64,000 nucleotides of DNA from Gammaproteobacteria bacterium (GTDB lineage: Bacteria > Pseudomonadota > Gammaproteobacteria > Xanthomonadales > Rhodanobacteraceae): NCBI GenBank assembly GCA_021325195.1, contig JAJPHQ010000037.1, forward strand, positions 62,001-126,000. Direction: 5' to 3'. The stretch's first letter is position 1. Each line of letters begins with the position of its first letter. Positions 4,332-27,032 of this stretch are shown here, piece by piece. The position numbers and the translations under genes were made by a program. The notes below the pieces were generated by a model that was not told where the DNA came from, did no database searches, and saw only the letters and a list, made by a program, of their open reading frames with translations.

Positions 4332-6575
4332 TCACGCCGTGGATTCGATCCTCTCCACCCGCCGCAGCCCGCGCGGCAGCAGCCCGCCGCGCTGCGCCCG
4401 GCTGCCGCCGTATTCGACGAGGTCGGCCCATTTCAGGGTCAGCTTGCGCTGGCCCGCATGCAGCGTGACTTCGCCTGCGCCTTCCGCGACCACCGCGATG
4501 CCGGCCACGCGTTCCTCGCCGGATTGCCATTTCGCCTTCGGGATTTCGATCAGCTTGTTGCCCCGTCCGCGCTCGAGTTCCGGCAGGGCGGCGACCGAGA
4601 ACATCAGCAGGTGCCCTTCCGTCGTGACGACCACGATCCGGTCGCGCGCGGGATCGTTCACCACCGCCGGTTGCAGCACGCGCGCGCCGTCGTCCATGCT
4701 GATCACCTGCTTGCCACCCTTCTTGTTGGCCAGCAGCGCCTCGAAGCGCGTGATGAAACCGTAGCCCGCGTCGGTGGCCAGCACCAGGCGGGTGTCGTTG
4801 TCGCCGATCGCGAGCGCGTCGAAGCGCGCACCCGCGGGTGGCGTGAAGCGGCCGGTCAGGGGTTCGCCGTTGCCGCGCGCCGAGGGCAGGGTGTGCGCGG
4901 GCGTGGAGTAACTGCGCCCGGTCGAATCGAGGAAGGCGACCTGCTGCGCGCTCCTGCCGCGCATCGCGGCGAGGAATGCATCGCCCTCGCGGTACGACAG
5001 TTCGCGCGCATCGACATCGTGGCCCCTGGCCGCGCGCGCCCAGCCCTTCTGTGACAGCACCACGGTCACGGGCTCGGAAACCACCAGCTCGCTTTCGTCC
5101 AGCGCCTGCGCGGCCGCACGCTCGACCAGCGGCGAGCGGCGCGCGTCGCCGTACTTGTCGGCGTCGGCTTTCAGTTCCTGCTTGATCAGCGTCTTCAGGC
5201 GCGCCTTCGATTTCAGCGTCACCCCGATCTTCGCGCGTTCCTCTTCCAGCTCGTCGCGCTCGGCGTCGAGTTTCATTTCCTCCAGCCGCGCCAGTTGCCG
5301 CAGTTTGGTTTCGAGGATGTAATCGGCCTGTTCTTCGCTCAACTTGAAGCGCTTGATCAAGGCGGGTTTGGGTTCGTCCTCGTGGCGGACGATCCGGATG
5401 ACTTCATCCAAATTGAGAAACGCGATCCGCAGCCCTTCCAGCAGGTGCAACCGGCGTTCGACCTTTTCCAGCCTGTGCTGCAAGCGCCGCGTGACGGTGT
5501 CACTGCGGAAGCGCAGCCATTCTTCCAGGATCTGTTTCAGCGTCTTGACCTGCGGCCGGCCGTCCAGCCCGATCATGTTGAGGTTGACGCGGAAGCTCTT
5601 CTCGAGATCGGTGGTGGCGAACAGGTGCTGCATCATCGCGTCGGTGTCCACGCGGTTCGAGCGCGGGATCAGTACCAGCCGCACCGGGTTCTCGTGGTCG
5701 GACTCGTCGCGCAGGTCTTCCAGCATCGGCAGCTTCTTCGCGCGCATCTGCGCGGCGATCTGTTCGATCACCTTGGCCGGCGACACCTGGTGCGGCAGCG
5801 CGGTCAACACGATGTTGCCGCGTTCTTCCATGTACACCGCGCGGCAGCGCACCGAACCGTTGCCGGTCGCGTACATCGCCACCAGTTCATTGCGCGGCGT
5901 GATGATTTCCGCGGCGGTCGGAAAGTCCGGGCCCTTGATGTGTTCGCACAGCTCGGCGACGCTGGCGGAAGGCTCGTCCAGCAGATGGATGCACGCCGCC
6001 GCGATTTCGCGCAGGTTGTGCGGCGGGATGTCGGTGGCCATGCCCACCGCGATGCCGGTGGCACCGTTCAGCAGCACGTGCGGCATCCGCGCCGGCAGCC
6101 ATGAGGGTTCCGTGAGCGTGCCGTCGAAATTGGGCGTCCATTCCACCGTGCCCATTCCGAGTTCGCCCAGCAGCAGTTCGGCGATCGGCGTCAGCCGCGA
6201 CTCGGTGTAGCGCATCGCCGCAAAGGATTTGGGATCGTCGGGCGAACCGAAGTTGCCCTGACCGTCGATCAACGGATAGCGGTAACTGAATGGCTGCGCC
6301 ATCAGCACCAGTGCTTCGTAGCAGGCCATGTCGCCATGCGGATGGAACTTGCCGATCACGTCGCCCACGGTGCGTGCGGATTTCTTGGGCTTGGCGGCGG
6401 CGGCAAGGCCGAGTTCGCTCATCGCATAGACGATGCGGCGCTGCACGGGTTTCAGGCCATCGCCGATGAAGGGCAGGGCGCGGTCCAGCACCACGTACAT
6501 CGAGTAGTCGAGGTAGGCGCGCTCGGCGTATTCGCGCAGCGGGATCTGTTCGAAGTTGGTTTGCAAGTCAGTCAT
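4332..6575 (-). CDS. parC: DNA topoisomerase IV subunit A
   Basis: 747 aa; [38 protein letters not shown]. Confidence 0.97.
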
Positions 6576-20669: not shown

Positions 20670-21356
20670 ATGGTGAATCCGGTCATTCCGCGCGGTTTCG
20701 ATTTCGGCGTCGCGCACGCGCATCTCTCGAAACGCGACAAGAAGCTCGCGAAATGGATGCAGCGCATCGGTCCGATCGAGCGCGATTTCACGGTGAGGTT
20801 CGATCCGGTCGATGCGCTGGCGCGCGCGATCCTGTACCAGCAGTTGTCGGGCAAGGCCGCCGCGACCATCGTGGGGCGGATCGAGAAGCTAATGCCGCGC
20901 GCGGGAAAGATCACCGCGAAGGGCATCGACGCCGCCAGCGACGAGGCGCTGCGCGCGGCCGGCGCCTCGCGCAACAAGATCGCCGCGTTGCGCGACCTCG
21001 CGGCCAAGTCGCGCGAAGGAATCGTACCCACGCCCGCGCAGCTCGCGCGGATGCCCGACCAGGACCTGATCGATCACCTGACCCAGGTACGCGGCATCGG
21101 CCGCTGGACCGTCGAGATGCTGCTGATGTTCCGGCTGGGCCGTCCCGACGTGTTGCCGGTGCACGACCTCGGCATCCGCAAGGGCGCGCAGATCGTGCAC
21201 CGATTCGATGACCTGCCCGCACCTCTGGCGTTGCAGGAATTCGGCGAACGCTGGGTGCCGTTCCGGACGCTGGCGAGCTTCTACCTCTGGAAAATCGTCG
21301 AGGCCGCGAACCCGCCCAAGAACGATGCGAAGACCGCTCGGCGTTCACAGGATTGA
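20670..21356 (+). CDS. DNA-3-methyladenine glycosylase 2 family (AlkA-like)
   Basis: AILYQQLSGKAAATIVGRI; HhH-GPD region LTQVRGIGRWTVEMLLMFRLGRPDVLPVHDLGIRKG. Confidence 0.92.
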   Translation: MVNPVIPRGFDFGVAHAHLSKRDKKLAKWMQRIGPIERDFTVRFDPVDALARAILYQQLSGKAAATIVGRIEKLMPRAGKITAKGIDAASDEALRAAGASRNKIAALRDLAAKSREGIVPTPAQLARMPDQDLIDHLTQVRGIGRWTVEMLLMFRLGRPDVLPVHDLGIRKGAQIVHRFDDLPAPLALQEFGERWVPFRTLASFYLWKIVEAANPPKNDAKTARRSQD

Positions 21357-21568
21357 TGGCGGGCTCTATCTCGAAACCCCTGTCACCGACCGTTTCCGAA
21401 CCCGGTGAGGCGACCGAATCACATTCCGACAAAATCGCCCCTAAAACCCCGTCGCCGCCCGCGAAAAGTTGAGGGAATTACCCGGCTCGTACGCATGGCG
21501 GCACTCATAACCCCGTCCACCAGATTGGTGAACAGATGGCATGATCGGGTCGCTCGTGCCGCAAACGC

Positions 21569-22045
21569 TCATGCTGTCAGGGCTTGTTTGGTATCCGGAA
21601 CGCGCGACAAGGCCCTGAGGATGAAGTACGGTCCGGTTACACGAGTCATGGCATCGTACTTTTGCAACGTGATGGTCTGCGAGTCGAAGCACATCCACTC
21701 GGGGTGCTTGAATTTCAATACGCCGGGCGCCGGTCCATCACGGTATCCCTTCGTCTTCAGCCATTGCTCGATGTTCGAGGCAGTCAGGCGGTCACTGGGG
21801 ATTTCGATGACTGCCGAGCAGGTGTTCCACCACTGCACTGCCATTCCGAACAGGCCGCCCAGGAACATGCTACGCGCCAGCGACCTGTCCGGCAGAAATG
21901 ACAAACCGACGGCAAGCGCACAGGCAATTCCGGCAAACCAGATCAGACGACGCGCATCTCGCAGCTGATGACCAATTCCCATCCTTCTTGCCGACACGCT
22001 TGCCTTCACGAACATCACACGCCTCGCGTTGGGTTCAAGAAACAC
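21569..22045 (-). CDS. small membrane-associated hypothetical protein (possible immunity-type gene)
   Basis: same strand as exporter/precursor genes; one or two TM segments. Confidence 0.5.
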   Translation of the reverse strand: MFLEPNARRVMFVKASVSARRMGIGHQLRDARRLIWFAGIACALAVGLSFLPDRSLARSMFLGGLFGMAVQWWNTCSAVIEIPSDRLTASNIEQWLKTKGYRDGPAPGVLKFKHPEWMCFDSQTITLQKYDAMTRVTGPYFILRALSRVPDTKQALTA

Positions 22046-22124
22046 GCAACTTGAAATCCTTCACCATCGAAGCCCAGCGCCGGTGAATTGCAATCGCAGG
22101 ACTGAGTCTCAATTCTTGTCTCAT

Positions 22125-22571
22125 TTATTTGTGTCGGGAATTGCTTTTCATGGCGGTCTGCAAGGCAAGGGCAAAGAAATAACCTACAAACAGCATCGCT
22201 AACGTAATGATCAGGTTTGGCCAGAGCTGCAATCTGGCACGAACTAGGATTGCTATCTCCAGTGCAGCAATAGCGATGATTAGCACGGTTATCGAATACA
22301 TCACCTGTTCTTTGAGCCAGCCAGGTTTGTTCAAAAATATTCCAGCGATTGCGCCAGCTGCGATGAAGTACGAAATCCAAGTCGATCCTAAGTCCCCCCC
22401 GGCTAAATCAATATCCGAACCAGAAAGACTGGCGCAGAATTTGAAAACTAGCCACCCACAGCCAAAGACCATGGCGACAAGGACGCGATCAGTGAAATCC
22501 TTTCGAGTAATCATTGATTTGCCCGTATTAGTTTGGGACGAACACGTATGCATGGGCTTGCGCCCATGCAT
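22125..22571 (-). CDS. small multi-pass membrane protein, candidate immunity protein (real start may be internal, e.g. 22514)
   Basis: about four hydrophobic segments; directly downstream of precursor gene. Confidence 0.55.
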   Translation of the reverse strand: MHGRKPMHTCSSQTNTGKSMITRKDFTDRVLVAMVFGCGWLVFKFCASLSGSDIDLAGGDLGSTWISYFIAAGAIAGIFLNKPGWLKEQVMYSITVLIIAIAALEIAILVRARLQLWPNLIITLAMLFVGYFFALALQTAMKSNSRHK

Positions 22572-22574
22572 ACG
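22545..22574 (-). other. perfect 13-bp stem-loop with GCAA (GNRA) tetraloop downstream of precursor stop
   Basis: CGTATGCATGGGC-GCAA-GCCCATGCATACG on minus strand; no U-tract. Confidence 0.75.
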
Positions 22575-22583
22575 TTGTGGAGG

Positions 22584-22796
22584 TTAAAGCCCCAATTCGT
22601 TTGCGATGGCACTCCCGATGGCCCAGCCAACAGCCCAAGCAGCACCAGCCGCGGCTCCTACGGCACCGCCCATTGCCGCCCCCTCCACTGTACCGGTAGC
22701 TATCGCTCCCGCCAGTGCGCCAGCCCCTGTGCCCTGCTCGATAGCGTCCATACCTCCACCGACAGCTGAAATTTCACAAGACTGAAGTCGACGCAT
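22584..22796 (-). CDS. class II microcin/bacteriocin-like precursor peptide, double-glycine leader
   Basis: MRRLQSCEISAVGGG|MDAIEQGTGAGALAGAIATGTVEGAAMGGAVGAAAGAAWAVGWAIGSAIANELGL; SD AAGGAGAG; 49 bp after C39 exporter. Confidence 0.8.
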   Translation of the reverse strand: MRRLQSCEISAVGGGMDAIEQGTGAGALAGAIATGTVEGAAMGGAVGAAAGAAWAVGWAIGSAIANELGL

Positions 22797-22845
22797 AACG
22801 CTCTCTCCTTTTCAGGCCGAGAATACAAAGCCGTCCCGGCTTCGG

Positions 22846-25002
22846 CTACCCCGCCACCTCCACTTCGCGTGGATGGGTGGTCGGAATGGGTTGCACCGCA
22901 CCGTTGGCGATCAGCAGTGCGCGTTGCGCACTGGCGATGGTTTCGGGGCGGTGGGCGATCACGATGCGGGTGATCTGCATGCGGTTCACGGCGGCGTTGA
23001 CCTGCCGCTCGCGTTCGATGTCGAGGTGGCTGGTGGCTTCGTCCAGCACCAGCAATGCCGGTTTGCGGTAGAGGGCACGGGCCAGCAGCAGGCACTGTTT
23101 CTGGCCGCCGGACAGTGCCGAGCCCATGTCGCCGACCAAACTCTGGTAGCCCATCGGCATCGCCATGATGTCGTCGTGGATCGCCGCCAGCCGTGCCGCG
23201 ACCTCGAGCTTCAGCGGCGATGTTTCTGGATCGAAAAACGCGATGTTGTCGGCGATCGAGCCTGCGAACAGTTGGTCGTCCTGCATCACGGCGCCGACCT
23301 GGCTGCGGTAGCGGGCTAGTCCCAGCCGGCGGATATCGATGCCGCCGTAGAGAACCTCGCCTTCCTGCGGCTCCAGCAGGCCCAGGATGATCTTGGCGAG
23401 CGTGGTCTTGCCGCAGCCGGATGGGCCAATCAGCGCGACGGATTCGCCGGCCGGAATCGTGAGCGAGCAATCCTTCAGAATCCAGGGCTCGCCTTCGGCA
23501 TAACGGAAACTCACGTTGCACACTTCGATGGATGCTTCCGGCATCGGGCCGGACCATGCGGCGTCGACGTGTTTCCCCGGCGCGGTCAACGCAATGTCGG
23601 CCACGCGCTCGGCGTGCAGGCGCAGCATCCGGAATTCGATGCCCTTGTCGATCAGGCTGGCCGCGCGGATCACGAACTGGTCGGCGTAGGCCGCAAACGC
23701 CACCAGCATGCCGGCGGTGAAGGTGCCGTCGAGCACCAGCACCGCGGCCAGCCAGATCAGCGCGACTTTCTCGATGCCGAAGATGAACTGGTTGCCGGTC
23801 TGGAAGGCGATGTTGAGCCGCTGCATCGCGATGTTGCGGTTGACGGTCTCGACCACCGCATTGGTGTAGCGCGCACTGCGCGGCTGCTGCTGGTTGAAGA
23901 GTTTCAGGGTCTGTGCGCCGCGGATGGCCTCCAGCAGTTCGGTTTGCTGGCGTGCCGAGTACACGATCTGGTCTTCCTGCGCACGCCGCAGCGGCTGGTA
24001 GGTGAACCAGCGCAGGATGGCGTACAGCACGAACGCCGCCAGCACGATCAGGGTCAGCTTGATGCTGTAGAGCGCCAGCACCACCAGTGTCAGGCTGGCC
24101 ATGATCCCGTCCAGGATCGCGGCGACGAAGCCGGTGGTGAGGGTCTGCTGGATGGTCTGCATCGAACCGAAGCGCGACACCACGTCGCCCACGTGGCGTT
24201 TCTCGTACCAGTCCAGCGGCAGCTTCAAAAGGTGCGAGAACACGTTGCTGATCCACTGCACGTTAAGCATCGCGCCCAGCCACGTGATGGTCCATGCGCG
24301 CACCGCCGAAATCGCGGCCTGGAACAGCGCCACCAGCAGGAACCCGATGCCGAGCAGCATCAACAGGCTCTTGTCCGCCGAGATCAGCACCTGATCCAGT
24401 ACCCACTGCAGATAGAACGGCCCGACCAGCGCGAACACTTCCAGCGCGAGCGCCAGCACGAAGATTTGCACCAATGCGCCGGGCAGGCCGCGCACCTTGC
24501 CGGTGAGCGTACGCAACGAAATCGACTGGCGCGCCTTGACCGGTTTGAAATCCACCCCGGGCGTGCATTCCAGCGCCACGCCGGTGAAGTGTTTGGAAAT
24601 CTCCGCGTTCGTGAGTTTCAGCACGCCTCGCGCGGGATCGTGGATCACGGCGCCGCGCGCATTGGCCTGCTCCAGCACCACGAAGTGGTTCAAGTCCCAA
24701 TGCAGGATGCACGGGGTTTTCAATGCCGGCAGCTCTTCCAGTTCCAGCCGGAGCGGGCGGGTTTCGAAGCCGAGCCTGGCCGCCATCTCCATCACCCGCG
24801 CGAGGTTGGCGCCTTTGAGTGAAGTCGAGTGCCGGCGCCGCAGCGAGGGCAGATCGACGTCGTGGCCGTGATAGCGCGCGATCATTGCCAGGCTCGCCAA
24901 CCCGCATTCGGCCGCCTCGGTCTGCAGGATCACCGGCAGCTTGCGCCGCCAGCCCCATTGCAGGCCGTCGAACGGATTGGACGTTGCGATGCCCTCGCTC
25001 AT
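22846..25002 (-). CDS. peptidase C39-domain ABC transporter (CvaB-like bacteriocin exporter)
   Basis: C39 QTEAAECGLASLAMIARYHGHDVDL, NHFVVL, HDPARG; Walker A GPSGCGKTTLAK; LSGGQKQ. Confidence 0.95.
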   Translation of the reverse strand: MSEGIATSNPFDGLQWGWRRKLPVILQTEAAECGLASLAMIARYHGHDVDLPSLRRRHSTSLKGANLARVMEMAARLGFETRPLRLELEELPALKTPCILHWDLNHFVVLEQANARGAVIHDPARGVLKLTNAEISKHFTGVALECTPGVDFKPVKARQSISLRTLTGKVRGLPGALVQIFVLALALEVFALVGPFYLQWVLDQVLISADKSLLMLLGIGFLLVALFQAAISAVRAWTITWLGAMLNVQWISNVFSHLLKLPLDWYEKRHVGDVVSRFGSMQTIQQTLTTGFVAAILDGIMASLTLVVLALYSIKLTLIVLAAFVLYAILRWFTYQPLRRAQEDQIVYSARQQTELLEAIRGAQTLKLFNQQQPRSARYTNAVVETVNRNIAMQRLNIAFQTGNQFIFGIEKVALIWLAAVLVLDGTFTAGMLVAFAAYADQFVIRAASLIDKGIEFRMLRLHAERVADIALTAPGKHVDAAWSGPMPEASIEVCNVSFRYAEGEPWILKDCSLTIPAGESVALIGPSGCGKTTLAKIILGLLEPQEGEVLYGGIDIRRLGLARYRSQVGAVMQDDQLFAGSIADNIAFFDPETSPLKLEVAARLAAIHDDIMAMPMGYQSLVGDMGSALSGGQKQCLLLARALYRKPALLVLDEATSHLDIERERQVNAAVNRMQITRIVIAHRPETIASAQRALLIANGAVQPIPTTHPREVEVAG

Positions 25003-26273
25003 CCGTGATGTGCTCCATTCGCGGTCAGTTGCTGCCGCAGTCCGTACAGCGGCTCGAACACCCACTGCCACAGGCTGCGGCGGTCCAGCAGGATGTCGGC
25101 ATCGAGCGCCATGCCGGGTTTCAGCGCTTCGGTCTTGCCATAGGCGTCGATGGTCTGGTGATCCAGAGCCACCAGCACGCGGTACAGCGGCACCGCCGCG
25201 TTCTGGCCCAGCAGGCTCGCGGCCTCGCCGGGGCTGAGTGCACTGCGCGAAACCTGCACGACATCGCCGTATTGCTGCCCGAACTTCTGGTACGGATACG
25301 CCTGATAGCGCAGCACCACCCGATTGCCGGGTTCGACGAAGCCGATCGCGCTGCTGGGCACCAGCAGTTGCGCTTCGAGTTTCGAGCCTTGCGGAAGGAT
25401 CGACAAGAGCGGCTGGCCGGTCTGCACCGTCTGACCGGGTTTGATCAACAGGGTGGAAACGGTGCCGGCGCGCGGTGCCCGCAGCACCGTGCCGCGTTCG
25501 GCTTCGTTTTGGGCCAGTTGCGCGTCAAGCTGTGCAAGCTGACCGCGCAACTGGCTGGCCTTGGCCGCGGTATCCAGCGGAAGTTGCGTGAGTTGCGCGC
25601 GCAGGTTGCTGATCTGTTGCTCCGCATCCAGACGCTGACGATCCAATGCCTTCACCTGCGCCTGCTCGGTCAGAGCGGCGGCCTGGTACTGGTTGAACTG
25701 GGCGACGGAGACGACGCCCTTGTCGAGCAGCGGCTGGATCTTGCCCAGGAATCGGGTGGCCGTATCGGCCTGCTTGCGTTGCAGCACGAGCTGGCCGTCG
25801 ATCTGGCGCACCTGCGCCGCGAGCATCGCGATCCTGGTACGCAGGTCCTGGGCCTGCGCCTCGGCCTGTGGCTGGAGATTGGCCAGCGTGGTGCGAACCT
25901 GCATTTGCTGTGCGCGCAACTGCGCACTGACCACGGCGCGGGTATCGCCCATGCTGGCGCTGGCCAGATCACCGGAGACTTCGACCAGCGGCTGACCGGC
26001 CGCGACGCTTTCGCCCTCGCGTACCAGCGTGCGGGTAACCGTGCCGGTGGTCTTGGCCGGCAGTGTCAGCAAGCCCGCGCTGGGCAACAACTGGCCGCTG
26101 ACGCTTTCACGCCGGGTGTAATGGCCGAAGACCAGGAACAGCACAAGGGTCGCGGCGAAAGAAGCAGCCAGGAGGGTCCACCAGAGGAAGGAAAGCGGCC
26201 TCGCGAGGTTGATCGCGCCCAGCCACTGGCCGCGCTGCGCATGCAGAACTTCATCGCGAAACAGACCGTCCAA
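24999..26273 (-). CDS. HlyD/CvaA-family periplasmic adaptor (TTG start as called)
   Basis: N-terminal TM, coiled coil, RAPRAGTVSTLLIKPGQTVQTGQPLLSILP; 4-bp overlap with exporter. Confidence 0.92.
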   Translation of the reverse strand: MDGLFRDEVLHAQRGQWLGAINLARPLSFLWWTLLAASFAATLVLFLVFGHYTRRESVSGQLLPSAGLLTLPAKTTGTVTRTLVREGESVAAGQPLVEVSGDLASASMGDTRAVVSAQLRAQQMQVRTTLANLQPQAEAQAQDLRTRIAMLAAQVRQIDGQLVLQRKQADTATRFLGKIQPLLDKGVVSVAQFNQYQAAALTEQAQVKALDRQRLDAEQQISNLRAQLTQLPLDTAAKASQLRGQLAQLDAQLAQNEAERGTVLRAPRAGTVSTLLIKPGQTVQTGQPLLSILPQGSKLEAQLLVPSSAIGFVEPGNRVVLRYQAYPYQKFGQQYGDVVQVSRSALSPGEAASLLGQNAAVPLYRVLVALDHQTIDAYGKTEALKPGMALDADILLDRRSLWQWVFEPLYGLRQQLTANGAHHG

Positions 26274-26316
26274 GGTCGCCCCCTGTGGCCCAACGATGCA
26301 TCTCCTGTTTCAGTCC

Positions 26317-26342
26317 AGCATAAGCGAGGGGGGGGGCGTCAA
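26317..26342 (-). promoter_or_regulatory. candidate promoter with C9 tract in the spacer
   Basis: minus strand TTGACG-CCCCCCCCCTCGCT-TATGCT, 14-nt spacer. Confidence 0.4.
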
Positions 26343-26450
26343 GTCTTGATTCGATTTTCGTTTCGCGGCATCGCGCGCACGCGCGAATAACCATTCAATA
26401 TTTCAGATGGCTTTCGAGAAGAGTGGCTTTTCCCGTTTCTGTGAAATATG

Positions 26451-27032
26451 TCACGCGTGACGAGCGGCTTTGGCGGGATGCCAGCACCAGTGCCACGGTT
26501 CGTAGGCAATCCCGTGCGGGTTGCCGCGCGGGTAGGAGAGCGCGAAGCCGAATGGCGAGGCGTTGCGCATCAGCCACGCAAACGCGGGCGAACGTTCGAA
26601 ATCTTCCTCGAGTGCTGCAAATCCGGGCGTGGTGAGATCGACGGCGCGGCCGCTGTGGTGTTCGCTGTAACCCGGCGCCGCGCTGACCCGCAGGATCTCG
26701 TCGATCGTCTGGCCGCGCGCGAGTTTGCGCTCGAGAATGCCGAGTTGGTATTCGATCGAACGAAACGCCGACACGACTTGCAGGTCGATGCCGTCGCGCG
26801 CCGCGGATTCGCGCATCCCGGCAAGTGCGCGCGCCGCGCGTGCCTGCAGCCATTGTGGTCGACCGTGGATGTCGGCACCGATGGCGACAAGCCGCGCCGG
26901 TTCGCGTTGCAGACGCAGGTGCCGGATGCGGCCGTAGTCACGCGGCACGCCCAGTGTGTACGCGCGTTCGATCAGCGCGCGGCGTTCCGCAGCATCGCGG
27001 CAACGCCGCGGGGGCGCCATGCCGTCGCTCAT
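26451..27032 (-). CDS. D-Ala-D-Ala carboxypeptidase, VanY family
   Basis: VVSAFRSIEYQLGI...SAAPGYSEHHSGRAVDLTTPG...WHWCWHP. Confidence 0.9.
   Translation of the reverse strand: MSDGMAPPRRCRDAAERRALIERAYTLGVPRDYGRIRHLRLQREPARLVAIGADIHGRPQWLQARAARALAGMRESAARDGIDLQVVSAFRSIEYQLGILERKLARGQTIDEILRVSAAPGYSEHHSGRAVDLTTPGFAALEEDFERSPAFAWLMRNASPFGFALSYPRGNPHGIAYEPWHWCWHPAKAARHA

Follow-up and report, generated by a model that had tools for sequence, protein, structure and literature searches.

Does the short open reading frame (ORF) that lies directly behind a peptidase-containing ABC exporter on the minus strand of this window (the whole 64,000-nucleotide stretch of DNA that was analysed, from a bacterium of the Rhodanobacteraceae) encode a bacteriocin exported by that transporter, and, if so, which genes would protect the producer? 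An operon-like array was found, in the order hlyD, C39 ABC exporter, GG-leader glycine-zipper peptide, RNA hairpin, imm1, and imm2. Judging by the sequence, we consider it likely that the locus is a horizontally acquired, self-contained, Cdz-like or class II microcin-like bacteriocin cassette with its own exporter and candidate membrane immunity proteins. The kind of weapon is already known from Caulobacter Cdz and the class II microcins; the peptide, its candidate antidotes, and the intervening RNA hairpin are, as far as we could find, undescribed.

The first-pass annotation of this region had listed hlyD (24999-26273), the exporter gene (22846-25002), their 4-bp overlap, and the 70-aa ORF on the minus strand, all of which were recovered at those positions. 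The region it described contained these three genes but, ending at 22584, left out the hairpin (22544-22575) and two downstream ORFs of the cassette (22125-22514 and 21569-22015/22045). Its anatomy of the locus held up, but it did not recognise the candidate immunity genes, which point most strongly to a bacteriocin.

Exporter and adaptor genes

The hlyD-type gene (24999..26273, minus strand, TTG start) encodes a periplasmic adaptor of 424 aa (Pfam HlyD_3, 1.6e-17; TIGR01843, 1.7e-38, below cut-off), and adaptors 70-79% identical to it stand upstream of related exporters. Its reading frame overlaps by 4 bp that of the exporter gene (22846..25002, minus strand), whose 718-aa product is a C39 peptidase-containing ABC exporter (Pfam Peptidase_C39, 1.2e-35; ABC_membrane; ABC_tran) with Walker A from residue 526 and LSGGQ from residue 630. 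The exporter aligned over its full length with PCAT1 and ComA. In the alignment, Cys33, His106, and Asp122 of the C39 domain coincided with the catalytic residues of 6mpz and ComA; an HlyB-type domain without Cys was therefore excluded, and the triad guessed at first reading proved to be right. No second C39 protein was found in the genome (2.92 Mb) besides this exporter, and a different contig encodes one type I TolC that scores above the curated cut-off.

The peptide precursor

The precursor gene (22584..22796, minus strand, ATG start) encodes 70 aa, a 15-aa leader ending in GGG followed by a 55-aa Gly/Ala-rich core. It starts 49 nt after the exporter gene, and the SD sequence ahead of its ATG (AAAGGAGAG) is as strong as had been claimed. 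The leader (MRRLQSCEISAVGGG) has an ending of the G[G/A/S] type, at the same column where the aligned leaders of relatives stop. Its spacing, L-x3-E-I-x2-V-G-G-G, is common to many neighbours, in agreement with the double-glycine leader proposed at first reading.

Gly and Ala make up 56% of the core, which has no Cys, as had also been noticed, and no Ser-rich siderophore-type tail. In core numbering, zipper 1 comprises G7/11/15, between E5 and E23, and zipper 2 comprises G24/28/32/36, then G42/46, between E23 and E52; neither is broken by a charged residue, because E5, E23, and E52 only flank them. The description of the core as full of GxxxG went beyond composition: GxxxGxxxG occurred 4 times against 0.5 expected from composition-matched shuffles (P 0.004), and [GAS]xxxGxxx[GAS] occurred 10 times against 3.6 (P 0.0002). 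An excess of GxxxGxxxG at P 0.0002 or less was observed in 5 of the 7 relatives tested. The C-terminal tail, ANELGL, is weakly polar, with N, a single charge (E), and a hydrophobic end. The structure model of the peptide was of low confidence (pLDDT 67), and no lipobox was seen by inspection.

The search against microcin families that had been suggested was run with Pfam and NCBIfam, and no curated microcin or bacteriocin family matched the peptide above its cut-off. The match to Bacteriocin_IIc (PF10439; E 0.15) was sub-threshold, below the Pfam cut-off. Sub-threshold matches to Gly-zipper and OmpA families were put down to shared Gly periodicity and rejected. A BLAST search of 60 related genomes returned nothing but the peptide itself, because the cores diverge too fast, and the position behind related exporters was analysed instead; a tblastn search of 72,556 plasmids gave no match. 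The nearest homolog, in an unannotated Lysobacterales MAG (L055), was 50% identical over its length, a value obtained with the composition adjustment of BLAST off. At the level of sequence the peptide is new, as the first-pass annotation had supposed from the letters of this stretch.

The slot behind related exporters

Eighty related exporters with their flanking DNA were sampled, and the slot was defined as the 600 bp downstream of each. A GG-leader ORF was present in the slot of 18 of the 26 exporters at least 58% identical to the one studied and of 4 of the 50 below 58% identity. The corresponding controls were 0/76 for antisense, 35/1801 (1.9%) for segments taken at random from the same loci, and 0.5% for shuffled DNA. 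Leaders of the relatives aligned in register, and their cores diverged. A profile built from 11 such peptides matched in 9 of the 234 genomes of the family, and several of these matches had themselves gone into the profile as seeds. Such a sparse and patchy distribution is what would be expected of a mobile bacteriocin.

Candidate immunity genes

The product of imm1 (22125..22514, minus strand, 129 aa; weak ribosome-binding site) is a candidate cognate immunity protein. It is predicted to be a four-helix membrane protein with four long helices (AF2 pLDDT 73), and it had no family match in Pfam or NCBIfam and no fold match. A homolog of imm1 (32% over 125 aa) lies directly 3' of the homologous peptide in L055, the one clear case within reach; the exporter of that locus is only 66% identical, yet the pair of peptide and imm1 is kept there.

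The next gene, imm2 (21569..22045, minus strand), encodes 158 aa, or 148 aa from the probable start (ATG 22015), with a hydrophobic N-terminal part and a soluble tail, a candidate second or orphan immunity protein. Matches to imm2 were found in 5 of 399 genomes of the order, its own genome included. Its relatives lie immediately 3' of GG-leader glycine-zipper peptides in three other genomes (L099, L100, and L101), one of which (L101) holds a second pair of an imm2-like gene and a GG peptide; in L004, the peptide is followed by an ORF weakly similar to imm2. Both imm1 and imm2 are thus small membrane-type proteins co-conserved with GG zipper peptides. Because imm1 pairs with the homologous peptide and the relatives of imm2 pair with other peptides, we take imm1 to be the likely cognate immunity gene, with imm2 as a second or an orphan one.

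The imm2 profile also matched a distant protein in another genome (G545; L157, 6001-6402, minus strand) with no GG peptide beside it, so imm2 may belong to a wider membrane-protein family. This match suggests that imm2 was recruited from such a family, which is unnamed.

The hairpin between toxin and imm1

The interval between the toxin stop and the imm1 start holds an inverted repeat (22544..22575, minus strand; -31.3 kcal/mol, z -6.3) whose 14-bp stem is perfect and whose loop is GCAA. The hairpin is single-copy in the genome, which ruled out a dispersed repeat (REP or uptake sequence), and no T-run follows it. Relatives have hairpins at the same place that are unrelated in sequence. A strong stem was found within 75 nt of the stop codon in 27 of 38 peptide genes, compared with 4.5% of random segments and with 28/202 (14%) of the ends of other genes at these loci; the Fisher test against the latter (P 2.7e-12) is only indicative, because the peptides were collected from the loci manually, certain rows come from one and the same locus, and one control row (L055) overlaps a tested gene. 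An ordinary intrinsic terminator was also rejected: the hairpin was absent from the terminator scan, and of the 27 strong hairpins only 4 had a T-rich tail, with at least 4 T in the next 8 bases.

Weak or partial 3' hairpins after precursor genes raise the message of the structural gene in other peptide operons. By analogy, the hairpin is a predicted stabiliser or attenuator. Transcripts of the cvaC precursors rank among the most abundant in Xylella, which belongs to the same order (PMC11885251).

Cargo exchange and insertion site

The most similar exporter (91% identical), in G004, is followed in its slot by two different zipper peptides and a small membrane ORF that is also different, and a second locus of that genome, with an exporter 84% identical, has yet another pair. 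Because a 91% identical exporter is followed by a different peptide, the cargo has been exchanged, and because the closest exporter relatives carry other cargo, the exporter lineage does not go with any single peptide. The proposal of an exporter with a GG-peptide cargo was well backed by the relatives. Peptide-immunity pairs without an exporter match in the DNA examined were present in L099 and L121. Since the homologs of the peptide and imm1 occur with a 66% identical exporter, and some pairs are exporter-less, toxin-immunity units appear to move independently.

The gap between the glycosylase gene (ending at 21356) and the VanY-like gene (ending near 26451) is 5.1 kb in the window. In eight relatives, with the same gene order and no exporter, it is 0.12-2.5 kb. 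The GC content of imm1 was 47%, compared with 66.5% for the window, and GC3 was 49% in the peptide ORF, compared with 80-86% in hlyD and the exporter gene. No att-like direct repeats or tRNA were found at the ends of the cassette. The best reading is that the 5-kb cassette was acquired horizontally and inserted between core genes. The interval 21356-26451 is a variable site, with other sequence there in L141-L148.

Several further loci were recorded. G004 is a complete genome from the same genus with two separate C39 exporter loci, L088 (8677-9400) and L089, which differ in their glycine-zipper GG peptides and in their small membrane ORF. In Rhodanobacter sp. A1T4 (L002), an exporter 83% identical is followed by a Cys-rich GG precursor (5003-5275, 90 aa, leader KLTLSKETLAILTDEE) that resembles modified-peptide precursors, not a zipper bacteriocin. 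L121 (G021; 5409-6207, minus strand) is an exporter-less toxin cassette: two adjacent glycine-zipper GG peptides (74 and 86 aa) are accompanied by a membrane-type ORF of 69 aa, and the 12 kb examined contained no related exporter. In L021 (8171-9486), L024 (8159-9482), and L050 (8178-9510), related exporters are followed by a zipper-free GG-leader peptide and a 350-375-aa protein. The L021 and L024 peptides are nearly identical, both ending in VQYDREW, and the protein of this size class in L050 has sub-threshold similarity to an ATP-grasp domain; the three loci look like graspetide-type peptide-modifying clusters on the same exporter lineage.

Interpretation

From the established biochemistry of peptidase-containing exporters, the C39 domain would cut after Gly15, and the ABC/HlyD pair with the genomic TolC would export the 55-aa core. 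By analogy, the core may form glycine-zipper helix pairs that enter the inner membrane of sensitive relatives and make it permeable. Protection of the producer may come from two membrane proteins, imm1 as the cognate one and imm2 either as an accessory or as one acquired against a different peptide. Through 3' stabilisation or partial attenuation, the hairpin probably holds the message of the toxin at a high level compared with that of immunity.

The core might be delivered as a diffusible MccV-like class II microcin needing an outer-membrane receptor rather than as a surface-retained Cdz-type killer. The exporter architecture and the GG leader are the same in the two cases, and the same order has both class II microcin candidates, reported in Xanthomonas (PMC13174018), and CvaC peptides, reported in Xylella (PMC11885251). 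However, the core lacks Cys and a Ser-rich siderophore-type tail, no microcin family of Pfam or NCBIfam matched, and the cargo is dominated by zippers, as in CdzC/D. We give diffusible delivery somewhat less than an even chance; it concerns delivery alone and is compatible with the rest of the main explanation.

A role of the exported peptide as a signal or as a biofilm/matrix component, as shown for Synechococcus GG proteins, instead of as a toxin, is improbable. Zippers favour aggregation (PMC5380434), and GG-leader peptides with such roles exist (PMC4997328), but toxin-immunity arms races better explain the extreme divergence of cores behind near-identical exporters and the way in which partner membrane ORFs accompany the peptide type, and no receptor or kinase gene was found among the five genes of the cassette. 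A chance ORF in GC-rich DNA, with the exporter serving another substrate, is highly improbable: an antisense ORF spans the same stretch and the GC3 of the peptide ORF is atypical for the genome, but the strong SD, the canonical leader, the position 49 nt after the exporter, the 50% identical homolog in the same slot, and the slot statistics all argue against it.

The new elements here are the specific peptide, the two families of candidate immunity proteins, the pattern of exchange, and the hairpin. Few Gram-negative glycine-zipper bacteriocins have been tested so far, and immunity proteins were hard to find in a survey of Cdz-like systems (PMC5380434); the locus and its relatives offer two candidate families that co-occur with particular peptide types, and they show cargo exchange behind a conserved exporter. 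We suggest, tentatively, that the slot behind one exporter lineage of Rhodanobacteraceae and allied Lysobacterales is a swap site for cassettes of peptide, RNA hairpin, and immunity gene. Because the hairpins are unrelated in sequence yet retained in structure, and most of them lack a U-run, selection may have kept them as a device for setting the ratio of toxin to immunity or for exchanging cassettes, not as ordinary terminators. The recurrent toxin-immunity hairpin is directly accessible to RNA methods.

Comparison with known systems

The locus shares a GG leader and GxxxG helix-pair motifs with Gram-positive class IIb bacteriocins (Bacteriocin_IIc, PF10439), but it falls below the Pfam cut-off, has a single peptide, and would use Gram-negative HlyD/TolC export.

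With the class II microcins (MccV/CvaC with CvaA/CvaB), it shares the GG leader, the route of peptidase-ABC, membrane-fusion protein, and TolC, a core below 10 kDa, and an adjacent immunity gene (a candidate here). Unlike them, it has no library match, no Cys in the core, and the toxin directly behind the exporter; by inspection it has no siderophore-type C-terminus of the class IIb microcins, and siderophore-attachment or maturation genes are absent from the cluster. In the same order, CvaC-1/2/3 of Xylella are paired with Cvi (PMC11885251), and class II microcin candidates have been reported in Xanthomonas (PMC13174018); no microcin paper naming Rhodanobacter was found among those listed from an open-access subset of the literature. 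The original label of class II microcin was right about the leader and the export route but too general, the best fit being to the published description of Cdz-like glycine-zipper systems (PMC5380434).

Cdz of Caulobacter crescentus comprises the CdzA/B type I exporter, the glycine-zipper proteins CdzC/CdzD, and the immunity protein CdzI, and kills by contact, with surface retention (PMC5380434). Cdz-like systems, already found widely in gamma-proteobacteria and mostly single-peptide, are defined by 60-151 residues, a G[G/A/S] leader, one or two zippers that proline or charged residues flank and do not interrupt, a polar C-terminus, and a type I exporter nearby (PMC5380434). Here the peptide has 70 aa and lies 49 nt behind a C39 ABC exporter with HlyD, its leader (MRRLQSCEISAVGGG) ends in GGG, both zippers are uninterrupted and in excess of shuffles, and the tail, ANELGL, agrees weakly, in part a miss. 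The locus differs from Cdz in having one peptide and not two, co-directional genes and not two divergent operons, two candidate immunity genes, and a hairpin between toxin and immunity. The two are likened by these published features, not by CdzC/D/I sequence: in both, a type I exporter with an HlyD-type adaptor and no TolC in the cluster is accompanied by a small glycine-zipper cargo with a G[G/A/S] leader and an adjoining small membrane immunity protein (a candidate here).
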